From Roseiflexus sp. (GTDB lineage: Bacteria; Chloroflexota; Chloroflexia; Chloroflexales; Roseiflexaceae), in the NCBI GenBank assembly GCA_017743475.1, contig JAGHYV010000047.1, positions 1-37,490 of the forward strand: a stretch of 37,490 nucleotides of DNA, in the 5' to 3' direction. Made by a program: the position numbers and the translations under genes. Positions 2,238 through 37,490 of this stretch are shown piece after piece (position 1 is the stretch's first letter; each line of letters begins with the position of its first letter). A model generated the notes under the pieces. The model saw only the letters and a list, made by a program, of their open reading frames with translations, was not told the origin of the DNA and did not search any database.

Positions 2238-2239
2238 TA

Positions 2240-3473
2240 GGACTCTTTGTTCTTGTTGGGCCGCTCACCGTAACCACGGGCGCCGACGTTCCTGTGACAG
2301 CAGTTCCGAATCGTAGGGCATGCACACCATACAACTCACCCGCAGACGACGGAGCGGGCAGCGTCGTAGTCGGCGGAACGCCGAGCCGCTCCATCTGCTC
2401 AAGTTCGATCTGGTACCCTTCCAGACATCGGATTGCACCATACAACGTTTCGATCTGCTCAAACGCCGTTTCCGGGCGCTTCAGGAAGCGATTGTCATCG
2501 TTTAGTACGGCTTGCAGTCTTCTTCTGAGGTCACTTAGAAATCCCTACTCGTTTATGGCTGGCAGCCTGCTTCTGAGGTCACTCAGAAATCCCTCCTCTG
2601 GCGGATCGTCACGTAGTGACGGCGGAAACTTTTCTCGCCTGATGCCTTCCCTGGCAATCCGCCAGATTGCAGCAGGCAGGTCTTCAAGAATCTCCTCACT
2701 GATGAGGGAAGGTCATTCTTCCGCCAGCGCATCAGCAGCGCCGGTCGCCGGAGTGAGATGCCGGTCTCCGGATGCAGCACGAGCGCCGGTTCGACGCCGA
2801 TGACCATATCGTACTAGAGCCGGAGGTATGGTTCGATCACACGCTCGCGTCCCTCGGCAAGATGCCGCCGGGCGAAGTCGTTCCCCCCAATTCGAGATAA
2901 CAATGCATCGCCCCGACCCGCGCCAGGATCATCATCTTCAGCAAAGGGACGACCGTCCATCCCTCGTGCAACTCCATATCGAGCCGACCGCGATAGTAAC
3001 TTCCAGGAAGGAAGCGAGCGCCTGCTCTGCGCTGCTCCGCCGATTGCGAGGGTTTTGCATCTCCCGTAGCGTGCGCAGCAGGTCGAGCGCTTCGGAAAAC
3101 CGGGCATCGACCGTCAGATCAATCTGTGTGCTGATCTTCGCCAGCATCTGCTTGATTGCTTCAAGTTCCTTCCTGATCGCTTCCAGACGCTAATAGATGA
3201 TTGCAAATGTACCCACGGTCACGCCAATCTGCAGAAACGACAGCGACACGCTGAGAGTATTCAGCGCAAGCGGACGGAGCAGCAGGGTAGAGAGTGCCGC
3301 AGGCGAAACATCGCCAGTCTGACGCAGCCAGGCGATCACCTGCTTGTTGTCGGTTCGACGAACAACGCCGCCGACAAGTTCGAGGCGCCGGAGTTCAAAC
3401 CGTCGATAATTCTGGGGGCAAGTTCTGCGTCAGATCCGAGCGTTACGGTGGTGATCGGTACGGATGCTGCCAT
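2240..3473 (-). pseudogene. decayed gene of unknown function, multiple frameshifts and stops
   Basis: A roughly 400-residue protein can be pieced together on the minus strand across several frames. It begins at ATG 3471-3473 with AAGGAG 8 bases upstream and reads MAASVPITTVTLGSDAELAP. A frameshift in a C-run leads to NYRRFELRRLELVGGVVRR and VIAWLRQTGDVSPAALSTLL, then a hydrophobic stretch near 3205-3260 (SLSFLQIGVTVGTFAIIY). An in-frame TAG follows, then RLEAIRKELEAIKQMLAKI, likely helical or coiled coil. Further pieces include DLTVDARFSEALDLLRTLRE, MVIGVEPALVLHPETGISL and FLKRPETAFEQIETLYGAI. I do not recognise the family. The layout suggests a membrane segment followed by a coiled coil and a long helical C-terminus. 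The intact start signal argues for recent inactivation. The C-terminal limit near 2240 is approximate. Confidence 0.65.
2523..2593 (-). repeat. 48-bp tandem duplication inside the decayed gene
   Basis: The segments at 2523-2545 and 2571-2593 are the same 23 bases apart from one substitution, with a 48-base (16-codon) period. On the minus strand each encodes GFLSDLR-RL. The copy read first ends in an in-frame TAG, so the duplication is part of the damage to this gene. Confidence 0.7.
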
Positions 3474-3630
3474 CGATGCTGCTCCTTTTCACACCAAAAC
3501 ACCGGTTGCATAAGGATTACGGAGAAAACCGCTCGCCACTGCTGGCAGGTGCGGCGCTGCTCAGACATTTCCCATTCCATTATATGCGAACGCTGTGACC
3601 GATATGGTCACATTTCCCGCCGATGTGTCA

Positions 3631-3790
3631 ATGAGTCCACTGCAAAAAGGGTAGGTCACCGCTGAGGTGCAGCGTTCGCAGCGGCGAATTCCATAGCGGG
3701 TCACGCACCCGCATGCTGCGCCATGCATCCATCATGGTTCGTTTTTAGGGTTCTCCGTGCCCTCGGCGTCTCTGCGGTGCGTTTTTGCAG
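3631..3790 (+). repeat. 160-bp dispersed repeat, copy 1
   Basis: This segment matches 35125-35284 base for base in length (160 bp), with about 12 differences by eye. It starts ATGAGTCCACTGCAAAAA and ends GTGCGTTTTTGCAG. The ends are imperfect inverted repeats of each other (CTGCAAAAA near the left end, TTTTTGCAG at the right, plus an ACCGCYGAG block), as in a MITE-like element. It lies 57 bp upstream of the metallophosphoesterase start and may carry its promoter. The flanking 3474-3630 shows nothing else recognisable. Confidence 0.85.
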
Positions 3791-3847
3791 CGAAGTTAAT
3801 CATGGTACTATACACAAGATCGCATCACTCGTATCACCTGGAAACAT

Positions 3848-4729
3848 ATGAAAATCGCCGTTCTCGCCGACATTCATGGCAACCTCCCCGCACTCGCAGC
3901 CGTTGCCGCCGATATTGCCGCCTGGAACCCCGACGCCGTCGTCGTCGGCGGTGATGTGGTCAACCGCGGTCCGTCTTCCGCTGCGTGCCTGCGCTTCGTC
4001 CAGGAGCGCTGCGCCGACAGTGGATGGCGTCTGATCCGCGGGAATCACGAAGATTATGTCATTTCCGTTGTGCGTGATCCGACTGATCGCCCTGGCATCG
4101 AGGGGGCAATCCGACGCAATGTGCGCTGGACGGCGGATCAACTCGGCGCGGCAGCGATAGACCTGGAAAAATTGCCGGAGATCGTGCGGCTCCGCGATCC
4201 TGCTGGCGGTGAGGTGCGTATCGTGCATGCATCGATGCGTCACAACCGCGACAATGTGCTGGCAACCACTCCCGATGACGAACTGCGCGAGCAGATTGCG
4301 CCGCCCTGCCCGCTGATCGTCGTGGGGCATACGCATCGTCCACTCATCCGACGGATCGACTCAACGCTGGTCGTGAATGTCGGTTCGGTTGGACTGCCGT
4401 TCGACGGCGATACGCGCGCGTGTTATGGACGTATGGAGTGGCGCGGTGGGGTCTGGCGCGCTGACATCGTGCGCCTGCCGTATGACCGCGAACGGGCGGA
4501 GTACGATTTTATTGCGACCGGGTATCTGGACACCAGCGGTCCCGTGGCGCGACTGGTGTATGATGAGTTCCGCACCGGCTGGCCCCGTATTTACACCTGG
4601 GTGTCGCTGTACCGTGAACCGGTGCTTGCGGGCGAACTATCGGTCGATGAGTCGATTGACAAGTTACTGGCGCTCTGCGATGGCGGACCACCCCCCGACT
4701 GGAAACAACCAGCAGCGCCACTCTCCTGA
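3848..4729 (+). CDS. calcineurin-like metallophosphoesterase (YfcE/ApaH-type)
   Basis: The 293-residue protein carries the full set of binuclear metallophosphoesterase motifs: ADIHGN (Asp8, His10), GGDVVNRGP (Asp36), IRGNHEDY (Asn66, His67), VHASMRHN, and GHTHRP in the second half. These ligate two metal ions for phosphoester hydrolysis. The layout resembles bacterial phosphodiesterases of the YfcE/MJ0936 group, with about 80 extra C-terminal residues of unclear role. There is no signal peptide, so it should act in the cytoplasm. The ATG at 3848 directly precedes the first motif; the ribosome-binding site is weak (TGGAAA). It stands alone between a dispersed repeat and a hairpin. The substrate is unknown. 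Confidence 0.9.
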   Translation: MKIAVLADIHGNLPALAAVAADIAAWNPDAVVVGGDVVNRGPSSAACLRFVQERCADSGWRLIRGNHEDYVISVVRDPTDRPGIEGAIRRNVRWTADQLGAAAIDLEKLPEIVRLRDPAGGEVRIVHASMRHNRDNVLATTPDDELREQIAPPCPLIVVGHTHRPLIRRIDSTLVVNVGSVGLPFDGDTRACYGRMEWRGGVWRADIVRLPYDRERAEYDFIATGYLDTSGPVARLVYDEFRTGWPRIYTWVSLYREPVLAGELSVDESIDKLLALCDGGPPPDWKQPAAPLS

Positions 4730-7309: not shown

Positions 7310-7474
7310 GATGCGCAGTGTACTGCAAAAGTTACAGACAGGTGAAGACTTCTTTCCATACAATAGATGGTTCTTTCCCGCATGGCGCAGTGCGCATCGC
7401 TACAATCTGCAACGGATTTCCGTGAAGTCAGGTGCAAAGTGTACCGTGCGATACGTTGTGAGGAGGAGCAGGCA

Positions 7475-9112
7475 ATGACCACTCTGGACGTTGAAACGCT
7501 TGATATGGTTCTGGCGACGCTGCGCGAATATGCAGCGCGAAAGTTGACGCCCGAATATCTCCGCCATCTCGACCACAACGACGAATTTCCCGCCGAAGTC
7601 CTGAAAGACCTGTACGATCCCGACAAACTGGGCATTCACCTGTTGTTCATTCCAGAGGAGTACGGCGGTCTGGGTGGCGGCGCCTATGACATTTACCGGG
7701 TTTCGGAGGCATTGGCTGCAATCGACCTCGGCATCGCCACTAGCGTTCTGGCGACATTCCTCGGCACTGACCCGATTACGGTCGGCGGCACCGAGGAGCA
7801 GAAGAAATACTGGATGGGGCGCATTGCCAAGGAAGGCTTGCTCGTTGCCTACGGAGCAACCGAGCCGCAAGCCGGTTCCGACCTGGCGACGCTCACCACT
7901 AAAGCCGTGCCTGTCGAGGAAGATGGCAAAGTGATCGGTTACAAGATCAGCGGGCGAAAACAGTGGATCTCGAATGGCGGCGTCGCGAAGATTTATACCA
8001 TTCTTGCAAACGCGCCAGGTGGCATTTCCTGGTTTATCGTCGAGCACGATGCACCCGGCTTCACCAAAGGCAAACCGGAGGACAAGCACGGTATTCGTGC
8101 CTCCAATACTGCAGCGCTGTTCCTCGATGAGGTCTTCGTACCCGCTGATCGACTAGTCGGCGGCGTAGAAGGCAAGGGACTAGCGCAAGCGGCAGCGGTT
8201 TTTGGGTATACCCGCCTGATGGTCGGGTCGTTTGGACTTGGCGCTGGCTGGGAAGCAATGCGTCGTGCTATTCGCTATGCGCAAACACGCGTTCAGGGCG
8301 GAAAGCCGCTCAGTCAGCAGCAGGGTCTGACCCACAAACTGATTGTGCCGAACGTTGCGCGGCTTGAAGCAGCGCGCCACTACATTGAGTGGGTCGCCGA
8401 AACGATCGACAGCGGCAACGATCAGCAGCAGACCGAAGGTGCCGTTGCGAAGTATATGGCAACCGAAGCTGGCAACAAGGCCGCTGAAGATGCCATTCAG
8501 GTCCATGGCGGCTACGGCTACACCAAAGAGTACATGGTCGAGAAGATCAAGCGTGATGTGCGCATTACCTGCATTTATGAGGGTACGTCCGAAATCATGG
8601 AATGGACAGTTGCGCGCGATCGCTGGCAACTCCATCTAAAGACCAAAGGTGCGTACTATCACGATTGGGCGGCGCGGGTTGAACAGGCGCATCAGCGCGA
8701 TCCAAACAGTGGTGCAAGTGTCGCTGCACTGGCGATGCACGCACTGGCGAATATCCTCGAACGCGCCCGAATCGACCGCCTGACGCGTAATCAGCACATC
8801 CTGTTCCGCCTTGGTGAACTGATCTCCTGGGCAGAAACTGCAGCAATCTTCAGTGAGCGCGTAACTAGCAAACCAACAGTTGCCTCCGGTCTCGATACGC
8901 TGACTGAACAGGCGCTTGCACGCATTTTTGCGCGTATGGCAGCGCACAAGGTGATAACGGATGGGCTTGCCTGGCTGATCGGTGCCGGTCAGACCGATCC
9001 GAACCTGGCAAATACGCTCAACCTGCCTGCCGTCTTTGCAGCGCAGGCAGGGCAGATCGCAGATATGGACTTTGTTGCGGCGAAACTGGTCGAGGCATTC
9101 CCGGCAACCTGA
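7475..9112 (+). CDS. acyl-CoA dehydrogenase family protein, first gene of the lipid operon
   Basis: A 545-residue FAD-dependent acyl-CoA dehydrogenase. Visible marks are the helical N-terminal domain, [12 protein letters not shown], the middle beta domain with [11 protein letters not shown] and QWISNGG, and a C-terminal domain with [17 protein letters not shown] and IYEGTSEI. The Glu of YEGT is the catalytic base position in medium-chain enzymes. About 120 extra C-terminal residues beyond the classic fold resemble the long-form family members. The ATG at 7475 is preceded by GAGGAG; longer upstream starts are less likely. The synthase gene follows after 13 bases. In this setting it may introduce or tune double bonds on the product or a precursor, or stand in for a missing enoyl reductase; that role is inference. 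Confidence 0.93.
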
Positions 9113-9125
9113 AAGGGAGATGACG

Positions 9126-12100
9126 ATGAGTGACTCAGCAGAACGGGCGATTGCGATTGTCGGGGTGGGCGCTATCCTTCCCGATGCCCCTAATGCGCCT
9201 GCCTTCTGGAACAATATCCTGAACAAGCGTTATAGCATTACCGAAACGCCGCCGGAACGCTGGAGCATCGCAGATTACTACGATCCCGATCCCGCTGCGC
9301 CGGATAAGACCTACTCGAAGATCGGCGGTTGGGTGCGCGGTTTTACCTTTGACTGGAAGCGCTTCAAGATACCGCCGCGCGTCGCCGCTGCAATGGACGA
9401 AGGGCAGCAGTGGGCGGTCACAATCGCTGCCGAAGCGCTTGCCGACTACGGCTACCCCGAACGTCCGCTCGATACTGATCGCACCGGCGTCATTCTGGGA
9501 ACGGCAATGGGGGGCGAGTTACACTATATCACGCACCAGCGCATCGTGTTCCCCGAATATGTCCACCTGCTCGAACGCACTGAAGCCTGGCGTCGCCTGC
9601 CCAGAGAAGTCCAGCAGGAGCTGATCGCCCAGTGGCATGCAGAACTCGACCGCAGTCTCCCGCCGGTGACCGAGGATACAATGCCCGGCGAATTGCCGAA
9701 TATCGTTTCGGGGCGTGTGGCGAATGTGCTGAACCTGCGCGGTCCGAACTTCATTACTGATGCTGCCTGTGCCTCAACGCTCGCAGCAGTCGATGCGGCA
9801 TGTGAACAACTTATCCATCACCAGTGCGACGCAGTGTTGACCGGCGGCGTAGATCGCAATATGGGCGCCAGCACGTTTGTGAAGTTCTGCAAGATCGGCG
9901 CGCTCTCCGCCACCGGTACACGACCCTTCGGCGATGGCGCTGATGGCTTTGTAATGGGTGAAGGTTCCGCTGTATTCTTGCTCAAGCGGCTCGCTGACGC
10001 TGAACGTGACGGTGACCGGATCTATGCCGTCATCCGTGGCGTTGGCGGTTCGTCCGACGGCAAGGGGAAAGGTATTACTGCGCCGAATCCGATCGGACAG
10101 ATTCTCGCTGTCGAGCGCGCCTGGCAGGACGCAGGGCTTGACCCAGCGACGGCGACACTGGTCGAGGCGCACGGTACTAGCACGCGCGTCGGCGATGTGG
10201 TGGAGGTTGAAAGTCTATCGTCCTGCTTCGGTCGGGCAGAGCGCGGCAGCATTGGGCTTGGCTCGGTGAAGAGTAATATCGGTCACCTCAAGGCAGGGGC
10301 AGGCGCGGCAGGGTTGCTGAAAGCAGTGATGGCGATTTATCACAAGATTCTGCCGCCAACCTTGAACTGCGAAAAGCCGAACCCGAACATTAATTTCAAT
10401 GCGACGCCGTTCTACCTGCTTACCGAAGCGCGCGAGTGGGAGCGCCGCGGCAACACGCCGCGACGAGCTGGCGTCAGCGCCTATGGCTTTGGCGGTACCA
10501 ACTTCCACGTTGTTCTCGAAGAGTACATTCCGGGAATGATCCGCACAGAGCCAAAGATCTATGCCAGCGCTGCCGTTTCCCAAACCAGCGCGACCGGTAG
10601 CGCGACAGCAGCAATGGGCGTCGCCCCTTCCACGGTGACAGCCAGCGCTCCACCCCCAAGTGGACCAAAGCTGCGCTCTAACAAAATGCCACTACGTGGC
10701 ATTCTGGCAATCGGGGCGCCAACGCCAAAAGCGCTGAAGGACAAGATCGATGCGATCTACCAGAAAGTCGAGGGCGGTTGGACACCGCCAGTTGCGCCAC
10801 CCGACCCAAATGAACTGGTGCAGCAGGAACGCGTGGTAATCGATTTCGGCAATTACGACGAACTGCTTGATCGCCTGAAAAAGGTGCAAAAAGCGGCCGG
10901 TTTCGATAGTCCTGCGGCCTGGAAGTCATTGCAGGCGCAGGGCATCTTCCGCGGCAGCGGTCCCAAGCCTGGCAAGATTGCCTTCCTCTTCCCCGGTCAG
11001 GGCAGCCAGTATGTCAACATGGGGCGGGAACTTCTCAGTGAGCCAGCATTCGCTGAGGTAATCAAAGAGGGTGATGCGGTGATGACGCCGATCCTGGGCA
11101 AGCCGCTCACCAGTTACATATACGTCGATGCGAATGACCCAGACGCACTCAAGAAGGCTGAGCACGATCTGATGCAGACGGCGATCACGCAACCAGCGAT
11201 GCTGATGCTCGATGCTGCGCTCTGCCGCCTGCTCAAGGAATACGGCTTCGAGCCAGATATGGTGATGGGGCACTCGCTCGGTGAGTATGCCGCGCTGAAT
11301 GCAGCTGGCGTTATGCCGTTCGCCGAGGCGCTGGAGGCGTCAGCGGCGCGCGGTGCCGAGATGAGCAAGGTGCAGGTTGATGATAATGGCTGGATGGCAG
11401 CCGTGATGGCGCCGCTTGATATCGTGCTGAGCACTCTGAATGAGATCGATGGGTATGTTATTCCCGCCAATATCAACTCGTACAACCAGGTGGTGATCGG
11501 CGGCGCCAGCAAAGCCGTCGAGCGGGCCATCGAGGTCTTCACGCAGAAAGGGTATCAGGCGCAGCGCATCCCGGTCAGCCATGCCTTCCACACTCGGATC
11601 GTTGCACCAGCGTCTGGTCCGCTGCGGAAGCAGCTCGACCGCTTCCATATCGCCCCGCCTCGCATACCACTGGTTGCGAATGTGACTGGTGAACTCTATC
11701 CAACCACGGTCGAAGAGATCAAGGATATTCTCGAAAAGCAGATCGCATCACCGGTTCAGTGGGTCAAGGGGCTTGAAACTCTCTACCGTGAGGGGGTGCG
11801 CTGCTTCGTCGAAGTCGGACCCAAGAAGGCGCTCAAGGGGTTCGTCGATGATGTGCTGGGCAACAAGCCTGATGTGGTGTCGCTGTTTACCAACCATCCG
11901 AAGACTGGTACGCTTCAGAGTTTCAATCAGGCGCTCTGCGGTCTCTACGCAGCGGGGTATGGTCTCGTCGATGAAACGATTAACACCCGCCAGGATGGCG
12001 CAGCACAGAGTGGCGCAACGGTCGGTACAACGGCTGCGTCTGCTGCTGTACCATCCGTTGCCGGTGCATCCGCATCGGTCGTCAGTGCATCCGCGCCGGC

Positions 12101-15100
12101 ACCTGAGCCGGTCGTCAGTGCATCCGCACCCGCACCCGCATCGGTCGTCAGTGCATCCGCACCCGCATCCGCACCGGTCGTCAGTGCACCCGCGCCAACA
12201 CCCACGCCAGTTGTCAGCGCACCGGCGCGATCAACCATCGAAGAGGCAAACATGGTTAACGGCATACCGATCGAGACGCTGGGGAAACTTCTCGTACAGG
12301 CGCTCCAGGGTGCGCAAGCCGTGCATCCCGCAACACCCGGCGCTTCGGTATACGACCGCAACCTGCCGCCAGCCGGGTCGGTCGTCATCTCAGGCACAGG
12401 TCTAGGGCTGCCCGGTGCCGAGAAACCGGTGATGGACGAGCAGAATGCGTTGCGCATCCTGCACGGCGAGCAGTTCATCGACCTGATCCCGGAGCGTTTC
12501 CGCCGTCAGATGCTGGCGCGTAATATTACGCGCGTCGTCAAGAGTGAGGACGGTAGCGGCAGTTTTGAGACACTTACCGAACCCGATGAAGTTATTCGCC
12601 TCGCCGGACGCCCCGGATCATTCAATCTCAGTGAAGAGTATGGTGTGCCTGCTAAACTTGTCGAAGCGTTCGACTCGACGACCCAACTGGCGATGGCTGC
12701 CGGTCTCGATGCGCTGCGCGAAGCGGGCATTCCACTGGTGCAGACCTACCGCCGAACAACCACTGGGAAAGACCTGCCGGATCGCTGGATGCTACCGGAA
12801 GCGCTGCGTGATGAAACCGGCGTGATCTTTGCATCGGCGTTCCCGGGTCTGGATCGGGTTGCAGAAGAGTTCGAGCGGTACTACACCTACGAACACCGCC
12901 GCGAACAACTGGAGATGCTGGAAGCGCTCCGCCAGACAACGACCGACCCCACAACATTAAGCGAAATCGTTCGGCGTATCGGTGAACTGCGTAGCCTACT
13001 GGAACGCGAGCCGTATGTCTTCGACCGGCGGTTCCTCTTCCGCATTCTGGCGATGGGACATAGCCAGTTCGCTGAATACATCGGCGCACGAGGTCCGAAC
13101 ACGCACGTCAACGCCGCCTGCGCCGCAACTACCCAGGCGATTGCCATAGCAGAAGACTGGATCCGCTCTGGGCGTTGCCGTCGCGTGCTGGTGATTGCTG
13201 CTGACAATGTGACCAGCGACCATCTGCTGGGATGGATTGGCGCAGGCTTCCTGGCAACTGGTGCAGCAGCGACTGATGACCGGGTCGAAGATGCGGCGCT
13301 CCCCTTCGACCGTCGGCGCCATGGCATGATCCTGGGAATGGGTGCCTGTGCGCTGGTGATCGAAAGCGAAGATGCGGTGCGCGAACGCGGTATGCGTGGC
13401 ATTGTCGAGGTGCTCAGCACAGAAACGGCGAACAGTGCCTTCCACGGCACACGCCTCGATGTTGAGCACATTGCCAGTGTGATGAATAGCCTGATGACCG
13501 CTGCCGAACGCCGCTTCGGTATCGACCGTCGAACGATTGCACCGCATCTCGTCTTCGTCTCGCATGAGACGTATACCCCGGCGCGTGGCGGTAGTGCGTC
13601 AGCAGAAGTGGTCGCACTCCGCAGGACGTTCGGCGAGGCGGCAAATCAGGTGATCGTTGCCAATACCAAAGGCTTCACCGGACACCCGATGGGGGTCGGC
13701 ATTGAAGATGTCATCGCGGTCAAGATTCTTGAACATGGCATTGTGCCGCCGGTTCCGAACTATAAGGAGGTCGATCCCGATCTGGGCACGCTGAACCTGA
13801 GCCGTGGCGGACGCTACCCGGTTCAGTATGCGCTGCATCTGGCGGCTGGCTTTGGCTCGCAGATTGCGATGACGTTGCTACGCCGCATTCCTGGAAGCAT
13901 TGATCGGATCGATAACCGTGCACGCTACGATTACTGGCTCGATCAGGTGAGCGGGTACGATCGTGCTGAAACGGAAGTAGTGAAGCGTGTGTTGCGCATT
14001 AAGGCGCAAGGTGCGCCAGCGCGCCGTCCTGCGCCCAGTACGTGGCAGCCTGGTACGGGTCCGACGCTGCGTGCGGCCGCACCGGGTGACGGTATGACCA
14101 TTGCTCTGGCCACGATCCAGTACGCACCCGCGCCTCAACCCACGCCGGTCACGCCACCTCCCCCGCCGAAGCCAGTTGAGCCGCCTGCGCCGGTTGCTCC
14201 CACTCCAATCAACGGCAAAACGGTCGAGACGGCGCCGGTCACACCACCACCTTCGGCTCCTGAACCAGTCGCGACACCGCCGGTTGCGCCTACGCCGGTT
14301 GCGCCTGCATCCGTGACGGTTGCGCCTGCGCCTGCACCAGTTGCCGCTGCACCCGCAATGGATGGGGTGACAGCAAAAGTGTTACAGATCGTGGCGGAGA
14401 AGACCGGCTACCCGCCGGAGATGCTTGACCTCGATCTCGACCTGGAAGCCGACCTGGGGATTGATACCGTCAAGCAGGCGGAAACGTTTGTTGCAGTGCG
14501 TGAAGCATTCGGCATCCCGCAGGTCGAAAATCTGCGACTGCGTGACTTCCCGACCCTGCGCGATGTAGTTAACTTCGTTTACAAGCAGAAACCAGAACTC
14601 AAATCTTCCGCGCCAACTGTCGCCGCACCCGCTGCTGCGGTTGCTGCACCATCTGCACCAGCGCCTGCGGTTGCCCCCGCTCCGACACCGGAGCCCGCAC
14701 CCGCAGCAGCACCAGCAGTTGATCCGGTTGCTACGAAGGTGCTGGCGGTCGTGGCGGAGAAGACTGGCTACCCGCCGGAGATGCTTGACCTCGACCTCGA
14801 CCTGGAAGCCGACCTGGGGGTTGATACCGTCAAGCAGGCGGAAACCTTCGCCGCCATCCGCGAAGCGTTCGGCATCGAGCGGATCGAGAACCTGAAACTG
14901 CGCGACTATCCGACCCTGCGCCACGTCATCAACTTCGTCTATGAGCGCCGACCCGACCTCAAGCCGACTGCTGCGCCGACGCCTGAACCGGCAGCTCCGC
15001 CCGCAGCGGTTGCTGCACCAACGCCTGTCCCTGCGACAGCAACAGCGGTTGCAGCAGACCCTGTCACTGAGAAGGTGCTGGCAGTCGTGGCGGAGAAGAC

Positions 15101-17873
15101 CGGCTATCCGACGGAGATGCTCGACCTCGACCTCGACCTGGAAGCCGACCTGGGGGTTGATACCGTCAAGCAGGCGGAAACCTTCGCCGCCATCCGCGAA
15201 GCGTTCGGCATCGAGCGGATCGAGAACCTGAAACTGCGCGACTATCCGACCCTGCGCCACGTCATCAACTTCGTCTATGAGCGCCGACCCGACCTCAAGC
15301 CGACGGGAGAGGCGTCAGCGACTCCGGTTGCACCGGTGGCTGATCCTTCCACACCGACCACTCCTGCACCCACAGCCCGACCAACCGTGACGCTCGTTCC
15401 GGTCGAGAACGCCGATATGGTTCCGCGTCGCGTCGTCGTTCCGGCGCTGCGCCCGCCTATCGAACTGTGCAAGCCAACCGGCGTTGTCCTCGACGGCAAC
15501 ACACGCGTCGTTGTGATGATGGACCGTGGCGGCGTCGGCAAGGCGTTGCTCAACCGGCTGGAGAAGCGTGGCGTCGGCACGCTGGTGTTCGACGAACCAC
15601 CATCCGCCGAAGCGCTCGAACAGCAACTCAAAGGCTGGCTGGCAGAAGGACCGATCCACGGCGTCTACTGGCTGCCAGCGCTCGACGTCGAACCGGCAAT
15701 TGAAGACATGGACCTGGCGGCGTGGCGCGAGCATAACCGGGTGCGTGTCAAGAACCTCTACCTGACCTTGCGCACACTGTATGACACGCTTGTCGGACCC
15801 GGCACATTCCTGGTTTCGGCAACGCGGCTCGGCGGTCTGCACGGCTACGGACCGGAGGGCGCCAGCGCACCTCTCGGCGGCGCCGTTGTCGGATGCACCA
15901 AGTCATACAAGCGCGAACGGCAGAACATTCTGGTCAAGGCGGTTGACTTCGAACCGGGTCGCAAGACAGCGGAACCAGCAGACCTGCTGATCGCCGAGAC
16001 CCTCTTCGATCCTGGTGTTGTCGAAGTTGGCTACCGTGACGGTTTGCGCTACACGGTTACCTTCGAGGAGCGCCCAGCAGTCGATGGCACCCCAGGGATG
16101 TATCTCGGCAAAGATACCGTTTTCTTTGTCACTGGTGCTGCTGGCGGCATCACATCGGCTATCATTGCCGACCTCGCAGCAGCGTCGGGCGGTGTCTTCT
16201 ACCTGCTCGATTTGACGCCGAAGCCAGACCCGGACGATCCCAACATTGCGCTGTTCCGCCAGGACAAAGAGGCGCTCAAGCGCAAGTTGATCGACGACTT
16301 CCGCGCAGCCGGCGAGCGACCGACACCTGTCATGATTGATCGCAAGATCCTGGCGATCGAGCGCGAAGAGGCGGCATTGCGCGCTATCGAGGCAGTCCAG
16401 GCTGCAGGCGGTACGGCGCACTACTTCAGCGTCAACCTGCTCGACGGTCCCGGCGTTGCTGCGGTCATTGCCGACGTGCGCGAGCGCTATGGGCGGATCG
16501 ACGTCCTGCTGCACGCTGGAGGGATTGAAATCTCCAAGGCGCTGCCAGACAAAGAGCCGAAGGAGTTCGATCTGGTGTTCGACATCAAAGCAGACGGCTA
16601 CTTCAGCATCCTGAATGCGGCAAAGGGTATGCCGATCGGCGCTGTGGTGGTGTTCAGTTCAGTCGCCGGTCGCTTCGGCAACAGTGGTCAGTCCGACTAC
16701 TCATCCGCCAATGACCTGCTCTGCAAGGTGACAAGCAGCATGCGCTCGTGGCGACCGGAGACGCGCGGCATCGCCATCGACTGGACTGCGTGGGGCGGCA
16801 TCGGTATGGCAACCCGCGGATCCATTCCGAAGATCATGGAAATGGCTGGCATCGACATGCTGCCACCGGAAGCCGGTATTCCAACAATCCGCCGCGAACT
16901 GACGCAGAGCGCCTTCCGCGGCGAAATCGTCGTCGGGCAGCGACTCGGTATCCTGGGGGCGGAGTTCGACGAGACTGGCGGACTTGACCTGTCAAAGGTT
17001 GACACCAGCGGTCGCCTGATGATCGGGTCGGTCAAAGCCTTCAAACTGTACGGCGGTATCGAGGTGGAGACGACCTTTGATCCGAAGGAGCAACCATTCC
17101 TCTACGATCATCAGATCGAGGGAGTGCCGGTACTGCCAGGCGTGATGGGAACCGAAGCGTTTGCCGAACTAGCAACCCTCCTCACGCCAGGCTTCTGCAT
17201 CGCCTCGATCAGCGAGCAGTTCAGCAGCCCGTTCAAGTTCCACCGCGGTCAACCGCGCACGCTCTATCTGAGTGCGACGATCCATCCCACGGGTCATGGA
17301 ATGCTAGTGGCGAAGACGACGTTGCGCGGTATGGTGCAACCGCGCCCTGATATGCCGCCGCGCTTCGACACCCACTTCGTTGGTGAGGTGTACCTCACGA
17401 CAGCGCCGGTTGAGGGACGGACAATCGACTTCACGCCGCCGTCCGTCGAAGCACTCGACATTGACCGTGAACGTATCTACCGGGTCTACTTCCATGGTCC
17501 GGCGTACCAGGTGATAGAGCGCGTCGGCGTAGTGGGCGATCAGGCAGTAGCGTTGATGACGGACGGATTACCGCCAAACAGCGCGCCAGACATGCCGATG
17601 CTGACTGCGCCGCGGTTGATCGAACTCTGCTTCCAGACGGCTGGCATGTGGGAAATGGTGACGCACCGGGCAATGGCGCTGCCAGCCGCCATCGAGAGCG
17701 TCATCATCTACCGGCAGCCGGAGAGTGCGGAAGGGCGACGCCTCTACGCACTTGTCACAGCCATCGAGAACGGATCATCGTATGATGCGCACGTAGTCGA
17801 TACTGACGGCAACGTGTATGTCGAACTGCGCGGCTATCGCACGGTGCGATTGCCGGGCGAGGTAAATGTGTAA
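9126..17873 (+). CDS. multidomain iterative fatty acid/polyketide synthase, PUFA-synthase-like: KS-AT-KS-ACP3-KR-DH
   Basis: A 2915-residue megasynthase. KS1 (about 1-470) has Cys215 in DAACAST, His349 in EAHGTST and His387 in SNIGHLK. AT (about 610-925) has GQGSQY, Ser717 in GHSLGEY and SHAFHT, the malonyl-type signature. A 33-bp-repeat Ala/Ser/Pro/Val linker leads to KS2 (about 1085-1590) with Cys1332, His1480 and His1520 and a helical insert near 1247-1300. Three ACPs follow (about 1746-1821, 1866-1945, 1977-2058), each with LGxDTVKQAE, so Thr1781, Thr1901 and Thr2013 stand where the pantetheine Ser should be. KR (about 2091-2628) has VTGAAGGI, Ser2512 and Tyr2525. A double-hotdog DH (2631-2915) has His2662 in [11 protein letters not shown] and Glu2833 instead of the usual Asp. 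There is no ER or thioesterase. ATG 9126 has AGGGAG 6 bases upstream. The KS1, AT and KR style is closest to PfaA-type synthases. Confidence 0.93.
12078..12242 (+). repeat. 33-bp minisatellite in the synthase linker, five units
   Basis: Five consecutive units start at 12078, 12111, 12144, 12177 and 12210, each opening with GTCGTCAGTGC or a close variant. Each unit encodes 11 residues of the form [11 protein letters not shown]. The array sits between AT and KS2 and forms a flexible linker; its copy number could vary between strains. Confidence 0.9.
14787..15304 (+). repeat. 182-bp identical segments in ACP2 and ACP3
   Basis: Bases 14787-14968 and 15123-15304 read identically, covering the carrier-domain core through the last helix. 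The linkers around them and ACP1 differ more. This points to recent tandem duplication or gene conversion between the two carrier domains. Confidence 0.88.
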
Positions 17874-17884
17874 TCTCACCGTAT

Positions 17885-17926
17885 GCGGGGCGTCGGGTAT
17901 GCTCTCCGCCGATCCTGATGCCCCGC
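17885..17926 (+). promoter_or_regulatory. strong intercistronic hairpin between synthase and PPTase genes
   Basis: A 13-bp stem with two G-T pairs (GCGGGGCGTCGGG / CCTGATGCCCCGC) and a 16-base loop fills most of the 69-bp gap. No T-run follows, so it is more likely an mRNA stability or partial-attenuation element than a full terminator. Confidence 0.5.
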
Positions 17927-17942
17927 TTCACAGGACTACTCC

Positions 17943-18704
17943 ATGGTATACTGGCTGATCCAGACGCTCGCCGATCATCCTGCCCTCGCCTGTGCTGAAG
18001 CTCCGGAAGGGATGCTCAGCATAGGCGAGCAGGTGCGCTTCCAGTTGCTAAAACACGCAAAGCGCCGCCGCGACTGGTTGCTAGGCCGCTGGACGGCAAA
18101 GCGTCTGACAGCACAGTATATCGAGACAATCACCGGGCGGCGACCCGCATTGAGCGATATCGTGATCACCACTGATCCAGACGGCGCACCTCGTCTGCAC
18201 AGTCGAAATGGATACGCCTTCATTAATCAGCTGGCGATCTCGATCAGCCACAGTCACGGGTATGCTTTTTGTGCGCTGACAGACGTTCCGGGGTACCGTC
18301 CAGGCGTCGACATCGAATATATTGAGCAGCGTCATCCCGCATTCGTAAGTGATTTCTTTACCGACGCAGAGATCGAGCGCGTGCATCGAACACCGCCATT
18401 GGCGCAACCTTTATTGACGACAGCGATCTGGAGCGCCAAGGAAGCTGTCCTCAAGTCGATCCGTCGCGGGTTGACGGTGGACACGCGCTGCATTGTCTGT
18501 CTGCCTGAAGAGCCTGTGGCAGATGGATGGTCGCCGGTGACGGTGATGTGCTCCCCTGAACTGAACGCAACCGTTCGCTGCGTTTGGTGGCGACAGATCG
18601 GCAGGTTTGTGCTCACCCTGGCGACCGCAGACAGCGAACAGACGACCCACGTCACCGTTCCGATTGTAGAAGTGCAACGGATCGGAGATGGAGTTTCACC
18701 ATGA
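17943..18704 (+). CDS. 4'-phosphopantetheinyl transferase, Sfp type
   Basis: A 253-residue enzyme of the Sfp/EntD family, which moves phosphopantetheine from CoA onto carrier proteins. The three family motifs are present: SISHSHGYAF (100-109), GVDIEYIE with the Mg2+-binding Asp123 (121-128), and WSAKEAVLK (163-171). The length matches the two-lobed pseudo-dimer form that serves polyketide and secondary-lipid synthases rather than the short AcpS form. It lies directly downstream of the synthase, so the three ACPs are its likely targets even though they show Thr at the attachment site. Its TGA overlaps the ATG of the carboxyltransferase gene (ATGA), which implies translational coupling. Confidence 0.93.
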   Translation: MVYWLIQTLADHPALACAEAPEGMLSIGEQVRFQLLKHAKRRRDWLLGRWTAKRLTAQYIETITGRRPALSDIVITTDPDGAPRLHSRNGYAFINQLAISISHSHGYAFCALTDVPGYRPGVDIEYIEQRHPAFVSDFFTDAEIERVHRTPPLAQPLLTTAIWSAKEAVLKSIRRGLTVDTRCIVCLPEEPVADGWSPVTVMCSPELNATVRCVWWRQIGRFVLTLATADSEQTTHVTVPIVEVQRIGDGVSP

Positions 18705-20245
18705 CGAGTATGCAGGAATACATCGAGAAACTGCGCCAGCGCAAGGCGATTGCTCGCGGAACAGTGCAGGACGTTGAAGCGCAGCACAAGAAAGGGCGTC
18801 TGACTGCGCGCGAGCGGATCGACCTGCTCTTCGACCCGGGCACGTTCGAGGAGATCGACACGCTCGTGCTCCCGCGCTACGACGTGTACCCAGGTGGGAA
18901 GCGTTCTCGCTATGGCGATGGCGTTGTAACCGGCTTCGGATTGATCAATGGTCGCCGCGCATTTGTAGCAGCACAGGACGCCTCGGTGATGGGTGGCTCG
19001 CTTGGCGAAATGCATGCCAACAAAATCGTCAAGGTGATGCACATGGCTTTGAAGTACGGCTGCCCTTTCATCGCCATCAACGACTCCGGCGGAGCGCGGA
19101 TCCAAGAGGGCGTCGATAGCCTGAGCGGGTATGCGCGTATCTTCGACGCAAACTGCGAAGCGTCGGGCGTCATTCCGCAACTTTCGCTGATCATGGGACC
19201 GTGCGCTGGCGGCGCAGTTTATTCACCGGCACTGACCGATTTCATTTTCATGACCGAAAACGCCTACATGTTCATCACCGGTCCTGATGTCGTGCGGGCA
19301 GTGATGCAGGAAGAGGTCACGCAAGAGCAACTCGGCGGAGGGCGGGTGCATGCTGAGGAAAGCGGCGTCAGCCACTTCCTGGCGCGCGATGATCAGGAAT
19401 GCCTGGCGATGGCGCGCGAACTGCTCAGTTACCTGCCGCTCAACAATCAGGACGACCCACCGTATGTGCGTCCGGTGGACGACCCGGAGCGACGCTGCCC
19501 GGAACTGGAAGAGATCGTTCCAGTCGATCCCTCCAAACCTTACGATGTCCGCAAGGTGATTACCAGCATTCTTGATGATGGACGCTTCTTCGAGGTACAC
19601 GCCCTCTGGGCGCAGAATATGGTCGTCGGATTTGGTCGACTCAACGGCTATGTCGTGGGGATCGTCGCCAACCAACCAATGGTGCTCGCCGGTTGCATCG
19701 ACATTAAAGCGTCAATCAAGGCAGCACACTTTATTCGCATTTGCGATGCATACAATATTCCGATCATCACATTGCAGGATGTTCCCGGCTTTCTGCCCGG
19801 CACCAATCAGGAATACGGCGGCATCATTCGCAATGGCGCGCGGATGATCTACGCCTATTCCGAAGCGGTCGTCCCCAAACTGATGATCATTCTGCGCAAG
19901 AGTTACGGTGGCGCCTACTGTGTGATGAGCAGCAAAGGGTTGCGTGGCGACCTGTTGTACGCCTGGCCCAACGCTGAACTTGCGGTGATGGGTGCTGAAG
20001 GAGCGGTCAACATCCTGTACCGTAACGAGGTAAAGAATGCGCCTGACCCGGAGGCAAAGCGGCGAGAACTGGTCGAAGAGTACCAGGAGCGGTTCAACAA
20101 CCCATATGTCGCCGCCGCGCGCGGGTTGATCGACGATGTCATCGAGCCGCGCGATTCGCGGCGAGTGCTGATCAAGGCGCTGGAAGTCACCCTGTCGAAG
20201 CGTGAGCGGCACGTGCCGCGGAAGCACGGCGTCTCGCCGTCCTGA
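18701..20245 (+). CDS. acyl-CoA carboxylase, carboxyltransferase (beta) subunit
   Basis: A 514-residue biotin-dependent carboxyltransferase of the PccB/AccD type with two crotonase-like halves. Marks include KKGRLTARERIDLLFDPGTF, MGGSLGEMHANKI, INDSGGARIQEGVDSL, MGPCAGGAVYSPAL in the first half and QDVPGFLPGTNQEYGGIIR and YGGAYCVMSSK in the second. It transfers carboxylate from carboxybiotin to acetyl-, propionyl- or longer acyl-CoA. The residue after GGAY is Cys407; propionyl-specific enzymes usually have Asp there, so acetyl or another acyl group is possible. The ATG at 18701 overlaps the transferase stop, and GGAG lies about 8 bases upstream. With the next two genes it forms a full carboxylase, presumably feeding the synthase. 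Confidence 0.94.
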   Translation: MTSMQEYIEKLRQRKAIARGTVQDVEAQHKKGRLTARERIDLLFDPGTFEEIDTLVLPRYDVYPGGKRSRYGDGVVTGFGLINGRRAFVAAQDASVMGGSLGEMHANKIVKVMHMALKYGCPFIAINDSGGARIQEGVDSLSGYARIFDANCEASGVIPQLSLIMGPCAGGAVYSPALTDFIFMTENAYMFITGPDVVRAVMQEEVTQEQLGGGRVHAEESGVSHFLARDDQECLAMARELLSYLPLNNQDDPPYVRPVDDPERRCPELEEIVPVDPSKPYDVRKVITSILDDGRFFEVHALWAQNMVVGFGRLNGYVVGIVANQPMVLAGCIDIKASIKAAHFIRICDAYNIPIITLQDVPGFLPGTNQEYGGIIRNGARMIYAYSEAVVPKLMIILRKSYGGAYCVMSSKGLRGDLLYAWPNAELAVMGAEGAVNILYRNEVKNAPDPEAKRRELVEEYQERFNNPYVAAARGLIDDVIEPRDSRRVLIKALEVTLSKRERHVPRKHGVSPS

Positions 20246-20256
20246 GAGGTAGTATC

Positions 20257-21738
20257 ATGTTTCGTACTCTTCTGGTTGCCAACCGTGGCGAAATTGCCGT
20301 TCGCATCATACGTACTTGCCGTGACATGGGCATCCGCACGGTTGCGCTCTATGACGACACTGACCTCAGTTCGCTCCATGTGCGCCTGGCTGATGCATGC
20401 GTGCGTCTGAGTTCGGGCGCGATCTACCAAGATGCCTCGGCGCTGGTTCAGATTGCGCGCGACTGCGGCGCGGACGCCATTCATCCCGGCTACGGCTTCC
20501 TTGCCGAGCACGATGAGTTTGCGCGTGCATGCGAGGAAGCCGGGATTACGTTCATCGGGCCGTCCAGCGCAATGCTGGCGCGCGTGCGCGATAAGATCGC
20601 CACACTCGAAGCTGTACGTGCTGCTGGTTTCGCTGTGCCACGCCACTCATTGCAAGCCTATCGCGCTTCGGAAGGGGATGCGTTGCACGCTGCCGCCGGA
20701 CGACTCGGCTACCCGCTGGCGCTCAAGTCGTACCGTGGCGGGCGCAGCTATGGCACGCGCCTGGTGTATGAGCCGACACAGCTGGAGAGCATTGCGCAGC
20801 ATGCGCAGTCGGCGGCACTGACTGCATTTGGTGACGACCGGCTCTATCTGGAAGAAGCATTTCTCCCGGCACGCTACCTGGAAGTCCAGATCGTTGGCGA
20901 CCACTACGGCAATCTGGTGCATCTGGGTGAACGCGATGGCTCGATCCAGCACAACTATCACAAGGTCGTAGCAGAGTCGCCGGCGCCGTATCTAACCGAC
21001 GCACAGCGCGAAGATCTCTGGCGACAGGCGCTTGCAATCGGGCGTTTGCTGGGATGCTCCAATGCCTGCACGATCGAATTCGTCCTCGATGCACAGGGAC
21101 ATTTCTACTTCACCGAAGTCAAAATGCGGATTCAGGTCGAGCATCCAGTCACCGAAATGCGTACTGGTATCGACCTGGTACGCACGCAGATCCAGATCGC
21201 TGCAGGCGAACCACTTGGTTTTTCGCAGGACGATGTCATCCTTCGCGGATGCGCCATCCAGGCACGCGTCAATGCAGAGGATCCCTGGAACCATTACCTG
21301 CCTAGCCCTGGGCGCCTGCGCCGGTTTCGCTTTCCGGGTGGACCAGGCGTGCGCGTTGATACCTATGCCTACGGTGGTTGCGATGTCCCGGTGCGCTATG
21401 ATCCACTATTGGCAAAGGTTGTCGCCTGGGACGATACGCGCGCAGGGGCGCTGCAACGGTTGCGCCGCGCAGTTGCCGATTTTGCGATCAGCGGCGTGCA
21501 AACGAACCTGCCGCTGATCCAGCGCATCCTAGATACACCCGAATTTACTGCCGGAACGTATGACTCAGAATTCGACCGACAATCTCTGCCGGGTGCTGAA
21601 ATTCCTGATGATCAACTCCGCGATCTGGCAGTTGCAGCTGCGCTGGCGTACCTCCGCCGGAGGAGTAATACTGTTGACGCTCTCCCCAACCGTGCCAGTT
21701 CTGGATGGCACCGAGACTCGCGCAGGTTGCCACAGTAG
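20257..21738 (+). CDS. biotin carboxylase subunit, divergent at the ATP-grasp lid
   Basis: A 493-residue biotin carboxylase homologue that would carboxylate biotin with ATP and bicarbonate. The N-terminal VANRGEIAVRIIR, HPGYGFLAEH, the ATP-grasp core and the C-terminal EDPWNHYLPSPGRL are typical. Lys113, Lys157, Lys236, Glu287, Arg291 and Glu295 match the key residues of the E. coli enzyme. Several positions do not. The glycine-rich lid, normally AAAGGGGRGM, reads SYRGGRSYGT (158-167). The metal ligand Asn290 equivalent is Lys289 (TEVKMRIQVEH). ERDCSxQRRHQKV has become ERDGSIQHNYHKV. It is full length with no frameshift, so it may be catalytically altered rather than dead. It starts 11 bases after the carboxyltransferase with an AGAGG site. 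Confidence 0.88.
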   Translation: MFRTLLVANRGEIAVRIIRTCRDMGIRTVALYDDTDLSSLHVRLADACVRLSSGAIYQDASALVQIARDCGADAIHPGYGFLAEHDEFARACEEAGITFIGPSSAMLARVRDKIATLEAVRAAGFAVPRHSLQAYRASEGDALHAAAGRLGYPLALKSYRGGRSYGTRLVYEPTQLESIAQHAQSAALTAFGDDRLYLEEAFLPARYLEVQIVGDHYGNLVHLGERDGSIQHNYHKVVAESPAPYLTDAQREDLWRQALAIGRLLGCSNACTIEFVLDAQGHFYFTEVKMRIQVEHPVTEMRTGIDLVRTQIQIAAGEPLGFSQDDVILRGCAIQARVNAEDPWNHYLPSPGRLRRFRFPGGPGVRVDTYAYGGCDVPVRYDPLLAKVVAWDDTRAGALQRLRRAVADFAISGVQTNLPLIQRILDTPEFTAGTYDSEFDRQSLPGAEIPDDQLRDLAVAAALAYLRRRSNTVDALPNRASSGWHRDSRRLPQ

Positions 21739-35124: not shown

Positions 35125-35284
35125 ATGAGTCCACTGCAAAAAGGGCATGTCACCGCCGAGGCGCAGCGTTCGCAGAGGCGGATTCCATAGCGAGTCACGC
35201 ACACGCATGCTGCGCCATGCATCCATCATGGTTCGTTTGTAGGTTTCTCTGTGCCCTCGGCGTCTCGGCGGTGCGTTTTTGCAG
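35125..35284 (+). repeat. 160-bp dispersed repeat, copy 2
   Basis: Same length as copy 1 at 3631-3790, with about 12 substitutions by eye and no indel. The right end TTTTTGCAG stops 12 bases before the GNAT start codon, so any promoter or leader of that gene must lie within the repeat or upstream of it. Confidence 0.88.
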
Positions 35285-35296
35285 CAATGTCATATT

Positions 35297-35722
35297 ATGG
35301 ATATTCGGGTCGCAACACTGGCGAATGCACACATTCTTGCCAATCTGAACGCGGACTTCGATGGCGTGCAGATGACGCCGGAACGCATGGCGGAACAGAT
35401 GCTCCGCTGCTACGATGTTGAACGTGCGTTGATCGCAAGTATCGATGGTACGGCGGTCGGTTTCGCCTACCTGCGATTGATCCCCTGGCTGTACTACGAT
35501 ACGCTGTATGCAGAACTGACCGAACTGTTCGTGCGGGAACCCTTCCGGCGTCGTGGCATTGCATCTGCACTGGTGGCACACGCTCAGGGTCTGGCGCGCG
35601 CGGCTGGCGCGAATGAGTTGCGCATCCTGACCGGACGCGACAACCCGGTGGCGCGTGCGTTCTATCGGAAACTGGGATGCGCTGAGGAGGACGAGGTGTT
35701 GCTGATACTGCATCTCGTATAA
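35297..35722 (+). CDS. GNAT family N-acetyltransferase
   Basis: A 141-residue single-domain acetyltransferase using acetyl-CoA. The acetyl-CoA-binding loop is in FVREPFRRRGIASALVAHA (about 77-95), the RxxGxA signature, and the last strands follow GRDNPVARAFYRKLGC, typical of motif B. The acceptor is unknown. I placed the start at ATG 35297 because MDIRVATLAN begins the fold; the upstream TTG frame reads into the repeat. No ribosome-binding site is visible. The lipoprotein gene follows after 40 bp, but the functional link is unclear. Confidence 0.88.
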   Translation: MDIRVATLANAHILANLNADFDGVQMTPERMAEQMLRCYDVERALIASIDGTAVGFAYLRLIPWLYYDTLYAELTELFVREPFRRRGIASALVAHAQGLARAAGANELRILTGRDNPVARAFYRKLGCAEEDEVLLILHLV

Positions 35723-35762: not shown

Positions 35763-36485
35763 ATGTCGCAGTGGTTACGCGCGGCGTTATCCGCGATTAT
35801 GGCGATGATCGTCGTCGGGTGCGGTCCGGCGGCGCCGGTCGTCACCCCAACGCCCACCCCGACGCCAGCGGAGATCAGTGCGCGTGCGGGACAGGCGACA
35901 AGTGCAGCGCAGAGCCTGGCATTTTCGATCACCGTCACCGGGCAACCGGTGTACACCGATCCGTCGCGGGTGTTCGTCATTACGGCTATCGACGGCGCGC
36001 TCCGCCGACCGGACGGGGTGCTGGCGACGCTGAAACTGCGCAGCGCAGCCGGTCTTGCAGAAGTGCGAACCGTCTCGCTGGCAGGGAAACAGTACGCTAC
36101 CAATCCATTGACCCGCGCCTGGCAGTGCCTGACGCCAGGGCAGGCGTTCGATGCCGCAGTGCTGTTCGACCCGCAAAAGGGGATTGAACGCCTGCTTCAG
36201 GATGGCATCGAAAATATCACCCTCGTTGGTGAAGAAACTCTCGACGATCGCCTGACGTACCACCTGCGCGGCACGATTCCCGGCGCACGCATGGCGGACA
36301 TCAGCGGCGGATTGATCGGCGCTGCTCCGGTCACCGCCGACATCTGGGCGGATCGGGAGACGCTGCGCCTGGCAAAAATTGTCCTGGTCGATCAGGCGCC
36401 CAATGCGCCAGAGCCAACCACCTGGACGCTGGTGTTCAGCGCCTATGACCAGCCAGTCGATGTGCGCCCGCCGATCGAGTGTTGA
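35763..36485 (+). CDS. LppX/LprAFG-family lipoprotein (LprG-like)
   Basis: A 240-residue lipoprotein. The signal peptide ends in the lipobox MIVVGC (Cys20), followed by a Pro/Thr-rich tether (PTPTPTPAE) and a mature domain that follows the LppX/LprG pattern: paired beta strands with SLAFSITVTGQPVY, a Trp-containing ATNPLTRAWQC, then FDPQKGIERLLQDGIENITL, VGEETLDDRLTYHLRG and TADIWADRETLRLAKI. In mycobacteria such proteins hold diacyl or triacyl lipids in a pocket and hand them to or from an MFS exporter. A GGAG site (AAGGAG) precedes ATG 35763. The exporter-like gene follows 44 bp downstream, reproducing the lprG-p55 order. Confidence 0.82.
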   Translation: MSQWLRAALSAIMAMIVVGCGPAAPVVTPTPTPTPAEISARAGQATSAAQSLAFSITVTGQPVYTDPSRVFVITAIDGALRRPDGVLATLKLRSAAGLAEVRTVSLAGKQYATNPLTRAWQCLTPGQAFDAAVLFDPQKGIERLLQDGIENITLVGEETLDDRLTYHLRGTIPGARMADISGGLIGAAPVTADIWADRETLRLAKIVLVDQAPNAPEPTTWTLVFSAYDQPVDVRPPIEC

Positions 36486-36529
36486 ACCGTCTTTCGGGAT
36501 GAATATCGTTCGTGAAAGGTGATTCCTTG

Positions 36530-37490
36530 GTGCTCGAACAGAAGCCAACTGCGATTGGTTCGGCACAGACGACACAGGATCGCGGCGCGATGGCGTGGCT
36601 CCAACGCCCATCGACGGCGCTTGCCCTGGTGTGCGCCGCTGTCTTCGTTGGCGCCGTCGATCTGACGATCGTGACTGCGGTGCTGCCGAAGATCATGGTC
36701 GATCTGAGTGTTTCGATCGACACCGAACTCCATCGCGCCTCGTGGGTGATTACCGGCTACCTGCTGGCATATACCATCAGCATGACCTTTACTGGTCGCC
36801 TGTCCGACCTATATGGACGACGCATCGCCTACCTGATCTGTCTGACCATCTTTATCCTCGGTTCGGTTGTGGTTGCTGCCGCACCCGCGCTCGAAGAGGT
36901 CGTTCTGGGTCGGGTGGTGCAGGCGCTGGGCGCTGGGGCGCTGGTGCCGATCTCGATGGCGCTTGTCAGCGATCTCTTCCCGCCAGAGCGCCGCCCGGCA
37001 GCACTAGGGATTATTGCCGCCGTCGATACTGCCGGTTGGATGGTCGGGCATGTGTATGGCGGCGCGCTTATGCGCCTGTTCGATGACTGGCGCCTGCTGT
37101 TCTGGATCAATGTCCCATTCGGCATAATTGCCCTGGCATTGACCTGGCTGGCGCTGCGGCGCGTAGTAATCACCCGTGCATCGGGCAGTTTCGACTGGCG
37201 CGGCGCTGTCCTGATTTCGGTCAGTTTGACTGCGTTCAACATCGGGATGGGCGCAGGCGCAGAACTGGGACAGACCGATTTCTATGGCGAACGTCCCGGA
37301 CCTCCGCCCTATGCCTTGCCGCTGACACTGGCATCCCTTGTCGTCCTTGCGGCGTTCATCTGGGTCGAACGCCGCGCGCGCGACCCGCTGCTGGACTTGG
37401 CGCTGTTCCGGCAGCGCGGCACTGTTGCGGCATCGATCATGAATGTGCTGATCGGGTTCGTGCTGGCGCTGGCGATTGCGAATGTGCCGC
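36530..37490 (+). CDS. MFS transporter, DHA2/14-TM type, 3' end outside the window
   Basis: At least 320 residues are visible before the window ends. Helix 1 is ALALVCAAVFVGAVDLTIVT with an Asp typical of drug/H+ or P55-type carriers. Motif A-like GRLSDLYGRR follows helix 2, then VVQALGAGALVPISMAL, and later helices up to about the ninth are seen, with the pattern of DHA2 14-helix exporters. GTG 36530 has AAAGGTGA 7 bases upstream; a GTG at 36512 is in frame and possible. Coupling with the LprG-like lipoprotein suggests lipid or amphiphile export rather than simple drug efflux. The C-terminus is missing only because of the window edge. Confidence 0.87.
   Translation, partial: MLEQKPTAIGSAQTTQDRGAMAWLQRPSTALALVCAAVFVGAVDLTIVTAVLPKIMVDLSVSIDTELHRASWVITGYLLAYTISMTFTGRLSDLYGRRIAYLICLTIFILGSVVVAAAPALEEVVLGRVVQALGAGALVPISMALVSDLFPPERRPAALGIIAAVDTAGWMVGHVYGGALMRLFDDWRLLFWINVPFGIIALALTWLALRRVVITRASGSFDWRGAVLISVSLTAFNIGMGAGAELGQTDFYGERPGPPPYALPLTLASLVVLAAFIWVERRARDPLLDLALFRQRGTVAASIMNVLIGFVLALAIANVP

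Follow-up and report, generated by a model that had tools for sequence, protein, structure and literature searches.

Interest in the LprG-P55 pair of mycobacteria has centered on virulence and on sealing of the mycomembrane, and the carrier MHAS2168 (8pnl) is a solved mycobacterial homologue of P55. The mechanism of the mycobacterial pair has been described, with TAG as the substrate (PMC10576003, PMC4709180). MHAS2168 depends on an aspartate (D35) and on an ion lock (E157-R426) that is absent from 46 characterized MFS carriers. It also requires linker helices A and B and the extended TM11 and TM12; its TM9-TM10 beta-hairpin is dispensable, as truncation left transport in mycobacteria unaffected (PMC10576003). 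LppX, another lipoprotein of this family, works with MmpL7 and not with an adjoining MFS carrier (PMC4709180). No report of an lprG-p55 pair outside Actinobacteria was found in the open literature, a search that did not cover subscription papers or database annotations. Known from mycobacteria, the pair is described here as conserved in much of Chloroflexota, a green non-sulfur phylum unrelated to Mycobacterium.

The analyzed window, a Roseiflexus contig of 37490 bases taken as a whole, ends in two genes on the plus strand. The upstream gene (35763-36485, +) encodes a 240-aa LprG-type lipoprotein of the LppX_LprAFG family, assigned by PF07161, by a profile of Chloroflexota homologues (A1), and by its AF2 fold. 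After a gap of 26 bp, it is followed on the same strand by the gene for a P55-type DHA2 MFS carrier (PF07690, MFS_1), whose open reading frame (36512-37489, +) is 3'-open and broken off by the contig end at 37490; the N-terminal 326 of about 530 residues are left, and the C-terminal part is lost. The initial annotation had read this segment as an LppX/LprAFG-type lipoprotein followed by a DHA2-type MFS carrier, which was borne out by both family matches and by the close spacing. The remaining fragment of the carrier was not found anywhere else in the assembly of the window, and therefore full-length orthologues of close relatives were used: those of L004 (a Roseiflexus MAG), L053 (a closed congeneric genome), and L005, all three of which have the complete pair. 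Identity between the window carrier and its full-length L053 orthologue was 97%. A gene for a GNAT acetyltransferase (35279-35722, +; PF00583, 63 bits) ends 40 bp upstream of the lipoprotein gene and is possibly cotranscribed with the pair, its membership in the system being without support. Scans for sigma-70 promoters and terminators returned nothing above chance.

The lipoprotein begins with a signal peptide and lipobox (35763-35822, +; MSQWLRAALSAIMAMIVVGC), the lipobox IVVGC ending at the lipidated Cys20 (codon 35820-35822), a cysteine that was invariant across 81 aligned homologues. Its match to PF07161, the only one in the genome of the window and the check called for in the initial annotation, scored 115 bits against a cutoff of 24 and ran over the full length (profile positions 2-192 of 192). 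Profile A1, built from 81 Chloroflexota lipoproteins, had four matches among solved structures: LprG twice (3.6e-36 for 3mh9 and 2.2e-34), LprF (5.6e-25), and LppX (3.3e-15). By profile, LprG stands nearest to the lipoprotein, ahead of LprF and LppX. The structural comparison left LprG and LprF tied: the AF2 model (pLDDT 94.5, pTM 0.85) matched LprG at Z 22.7, LprF at 22.4, TAG-bound LprG (4zra) at 22.3, and LppX at 17.1, with LolA-type folds next at about 11, and Foldseek concurred. A hydrophobic pocket had been expected of the fold, and the model leaned that way, with one hydrophobic face on most predicted strands; in the predicted model, Leu90 is the equivalent of V91 of LprG, a residue inside the LprG pocket. 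An LppX-type partner of MmpL was also considered and was ruled out, since profile A1 favors LprG and the adjoining gene encodes an MFS carrier.

The window carrier matched PF07690 at 119 bits, and its best NCBIfam model was TIGR00711 (efflux_EmrB), with a score that fell under the cutoff because the protein is truncated. That NCBIfam's top models describe DHA2 carriers for drug efflux, that P55 was originally described as a drug pump, and that an element separates TM11 from TM12 in QacA as well (PMC10576003) could all suggest an ordinary multidrug DHA2 pump, with an unrelated or accessory lipoprotein encoded upstream by chance. Comparisons with full-length carriers spoke against such a pump. 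The orthologue at L004:6828-8441 had MHAS2168 as its best match (E 2.7e-57 over residues 41-531), with EfpA second (9e-31). A profile built from 64 lipoprotein-partner carriers (A2) scored 487 bits for MHAS2168 versus 196 for EfpA, 185 for EmrB, and 164 for QacA; for a control DHA2 paralogue of the same genome, the scores were 159 bits for EmrB versus 84 for MHAS2168. In the carrier tree, all lipoprotein-linked carriers formed one clade (100/99) with MHAS2168 and Rhodococcus P55 that left out EmrB, EfpA, QacA, and three own-genome paralogues, giving the grouping with P55 and apart from drug pumps on which the initial annotation had staked its reading.

Within that clade, MHAS2168 and Rhodococcus P55 nested among the Chloroflexota carriers, together with 15 partner carriers (100/100), and a second tree gave the same picture of actinobacterial P55s among Chloroflexota carriers. 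With only two actinobacterial carriers in the tree and long outgroup branches, this nesting may fit transfer in either direction between Chloroflexota and Actinobacteria, or common descent. The Rhodococcus carrier ranked first by bit score among the matches listed in an unbiased tblastn search of plasmids with the Roseiflexus carrier, and its upstream neighbor is an annotated LppX_LprAFG lipoprotein gene with a 4-base overlap. This lprG-p55 pair (L144, positions 2210-4494) lies on the Rhodococcus plasmid pRZP2, a linear plasmid typed as mobilizable; horizontal travel of the pair is therefore possible.

The residues on which MHAS2168 depends could be followed by alignment. The TM1 aspartate of the window carrier, D50 (36659-36661, +), is the equivalent of D35 of MHAS2168 and D22 of Rv1410, a position that held D in 78 of 80 partner carriers and was gapped in the other two. 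Among the same 80 carriers, R118 and Q121 were present in all, N184 in 79, and R426 in 77. The equivalent of R426 falls in the region missing from the window, and the orthologues have R457 (L004) and R450 (L053); the TM11 arginine alone is unspecific, as it also occurs in EmrB and in two own-genome paralogues. At position 157, E was found in 52 partner carriers, D in 2, and T in 26. Whenever a partner carrier of the tree subset had T157, position 156 held D or E, and an acid at 156 or 157 was present in 48/48 partners; the count was 0/10 among non-partner DHA2 carriers, and EmrB, EfpA, and QacA also had none, so that the ion-lock acid, too, counts against a drug pump. Three carriers encoded near a lipoprotein gene, not adjoining it, fell inside the P55 clade and had both the acid and the arginine. 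Relative to the mycobacterial position, the ion-lock acid of the Roseiflexus/Chloroflexus branch sits one residue earlier on TM5, as in D172-T173 of the window carrier (37025-37030, +), and this shifted acid may be the putative partner of the TM11 arginine. The shifted form (DT or ET, not xE) was observed in L055, L056, L080, L111, and L134 as well as in all Chloroflexales partner carriers, and it makes up one major branch of the tree; L114 and L121 have DD, with Gln replacing the TM11 Arg.

An AF2 model of the L004 carrier (pLDDT 90.7) had 14 helices, including linkers at residues 236-258 and 275-295. Both TM11 (residues 443-481, 39 residues) and TM12 (residues 491-524, 34 residues) were extended in this full-length orthologue, which supplied the long helical element of P55 that had been sought in a completed carrier; the spacing from R426 to TM12 in partner carriers was mostly 46-61, versus 62. 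In this one model, TM9 and TM10 were joined by a short loop with no strands and no beta-hairpin. The best structure match of the model was again MHAS2168 (Z 45.8 over 459 residues; next, 39.3). The Chloroflexota pair is a homologue of mycobacterial lprG-p55, and the link is more than a mere resemblance. The likeness to that operon put forward in the initial annotation stands in this sense, across profiles, tree, ion-lock residues, TM11/TM12 extension, folds, and operon structure.

Across a sample of 400 Chloroflexota genomes from throughout the phylum, PF07161 was matched in 153, and a same-strand carrier of the P55 family was encoded directly downstream in 83 of 107 lipoprotein loci, a set that includes one actinobacterial plasmid and a few duplicates from the same genome. 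Linked genes mostly overlapped or were at most 100 bp apart. The survey of the phylum proposed at the outset thus found the pair to be widespread. In a co-occurrence scan that scored only three candidates per genome, a P55-tier carrier (by profile) was present in 122 of the 153 lipoprotein-positive genomes versus 9 of the 247 negative ones (odds ratio, about 104). Several of the 31 lipoprotein-only genomes are artifacts, because inspection of their loci showed an adjoining carrier, and others reflect contig breaks. Split pairs, with lipoprotein and P55-type carrier at separate loci, were seen in G024, G295, G347, and the f3/g6 genomes. The nine genomes with a P55-tier carrier and no PF07161 match (G010, G083, G109, G258, G279, G286, G346, G358, and G364) possibly reflect lipoproteins missed by the model, contig gaps, or partnerless carriers. 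An Embleya replicon, used as a monoderm actinobacterial control, had no PF07161 match. Such linkage and co-occurrence (odds ratio near 100) are hard to square with a lipoprotein placed upstream by chance. The ordinary drug pump, ruled out by the profile scores, the ion-lock acid, and the P55 clade, is in our view very improbable.

The family assignments, the pairing, the retained key residues, and the predicted folds indicate that the locus probably encodes a Chloroflexota representative of the LprG-P55 couple for lipid extraction. For the direction of transport, proton coupling, and hand-off, we infer the following from the mycobacterial system. In its inward-facing state, the 14-helix MFS carrier would pull a hydrophobic, multi-acylated lipid from the core of the cytoplasmic membrane. 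The switch between inward- and outward-facing states would be driven by proton exchange, both at the TM1 aspartate and at the acid-arginine lock between TM5 and TM11. The lipid would then slide along the extended TM11 and TM12 and settle in the hydrophobic pocket of the lipoprotein, which, tethered to the membrane, would take it outward.

As a first guess, tentative and a little short of an even chance, the substrate would be a lipid that is neutral or triacylated, TAG or wax ester for instance, and its candidate destinations may be the cell surface, the extracellular matrix, or an outer layer. The Roseiflexus genome of the window encodes two WS/DGAT homologues, and across the sampled genomes WS/DGAT was associated with the lipoprotein at an odds ratio of 5.6 that is confounded by lineage. 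However, no WS/DGAT was found in 119 of the 153 lipoprotein-bearing genomes, the Chloroflexus group among them, and TAG as a general substrate is therefore doubtful. Co-occurrence with WS/DGAT was accordingly set aside as proof of a TAG substrate, being lineage-confounded and with the Chloroflexus group having the pair without WS/DGAT. An exporter of the same family might instead deliver to the surface or matrix some lipid of these bacteria other than TAG (glycosyl-diacylglycerol, wax ester, a long alkene, or a further multi-acylated type), a reading that we find credible without quite calling it probable. The many lipoprotein-bearing genomes without WS/DGAT are consistent with it, and the wax esters of Roseiflexus and Chloroflexus have been set beside those of hot-spring mats (PMC4400912), so that other neutral lipids or glycolipids are possible. 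LprG, moreover, also binds PIM and LAM (PMC4214796; structure 3mha). The two WS/DGAT homologues of Roseiflexus and the association with the lipoprotein, phylogeny-confounded though it is, weigh against a non-TAG substrate.

A tie to lipid export had also been drawn from an unusual lipid synthase said to be encoded 13 kb away. The gene in question (8982-17873) encodes a 2963-aa polyketide/fatty-acid synthase of KS-AT-ACPx3-KR-DH domain composition, and its real distance from the pair is about 18 kb, with genes of opposite orientation lying between. The distance is 29 kb in G166, a closed genome from the genus, and in G330 the synthase is on a contig other than the 101-kb one that carries the lipoprotein gene. 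The synthase cluster was conserved in the two Roseiflexaceae genomes tested; a search of three Chloroflexus-group genomes with the pair did not turn up the synthase. The proposed tie was given up on these grounds: separation by 18 kb, lack of linkage in the sister genus, and the three Chloroflexus-group genomes. The surrounding region of the window (7367-21738) encodes an acyl-CoA dehydrogenase, the synthase, a 4'-phosphopantetheinyl transferase, and carboxyltransferase and biotin carboxylase subunits. The synthase itself has two KS stretches, an AT, three ACPs, a KR, and a DH, and it resembles secondary-lipid/PUFA-type synthases.

Cryo-tomography has revealed an outer-membrane-like layer in Chloroflexus aggregans and Viridilinea, which are without Lol, LPS, or Bam genes, and exposed peptidoglycan with no outer membrane in R. 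castenholzii (PMC7332563; see also PMC13319060). The pair might supply this non-LPS layer, much as it does in mycobacteria. The missing lol, lps, and bam genes would leave room for such a role, and within the phylum it is the Chloroflexus group, g7, whose proteins match the LprG family profile most closely. We nonetheless think this unlikely, as Roseiflexus retains the pair and R. castenholzii shows no outer layer. With the pair kept in Roseiflexus, delivery to an outer membrane cannot be its sole role; transport to such a membrane is not to be assumed, because the proposed layer is absent from the R. castenholzii tomograms. An evolutionary scenario that we likewise offer as improbable speculation has an ancient lipid extractor, widespread in Chloroflexota, that the mycobacterial lineage later co-opted or received by transfer for building its mycomembrane; in Chloroflexales the couple, with its shifted ion lock, would build a Lol- and LPS-free, lipid-containing outer layer or surface coat.

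For the lipid-extraction couple that we favor, conservation in a phylum without a mycomembrane and the nested position of the mycobacterial version argue that its basic job is not specific to the mycomembrane. The pair also occurs in bacteria that show no outer membrane, and its original role was therefore probably wider than building the mycobacterial outer coat. Research on the Chloroflexota envelope gains a concrete candidate lipid-export gene to knock out. To the P55 field, these genomes offer a naturally occurring ion-lock variant whose acid has shifted by one residue, along with dozens of distant sequences for work on mechanism and inhibitors.

Among known systems, EmrB, QacA, and EfpA share the 14-helix DHA2 fold of the carrier but score 160-200 bits compared with 487 for MHAS2168, lie outside the clade, and have no acid at 156/157. 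LppX (2byo) and LprF (4qa8) have the same Pfam family and fold as the lipoprotein, with a weaker sequence match than LprG. The closest counterpart is the LprG-Rv1410 (P27-P55) operon of Mycobacterium. Compared with MHAS2168, carriers of the Roseiflexus branch have the acid one residue earlier, the TM11-TM12 element of the Chloroflexota carriers is slightly shorter, the modeled Chloroflexota carrier lacks the TM9-TM10 hairpin, and the Chloroflexota host, unlike Mycobacterium, is without a mycomembrane. Identity to the mycobacterial pair is about 20% for the lipoprotein (LprG 3mh8/3mha/4zra) and 30-33% for the carrier. The Chloroflexota carrier and MHAS2168 nevertheless have in common the TM1 Asp, the TM4 Arg/Gln, the TM5 acid, the TM11 Arg, linker helices A and B, and extended TM11 and TM12, and the two operons share gene order, lipoprotein family and fold, and carrier clade.
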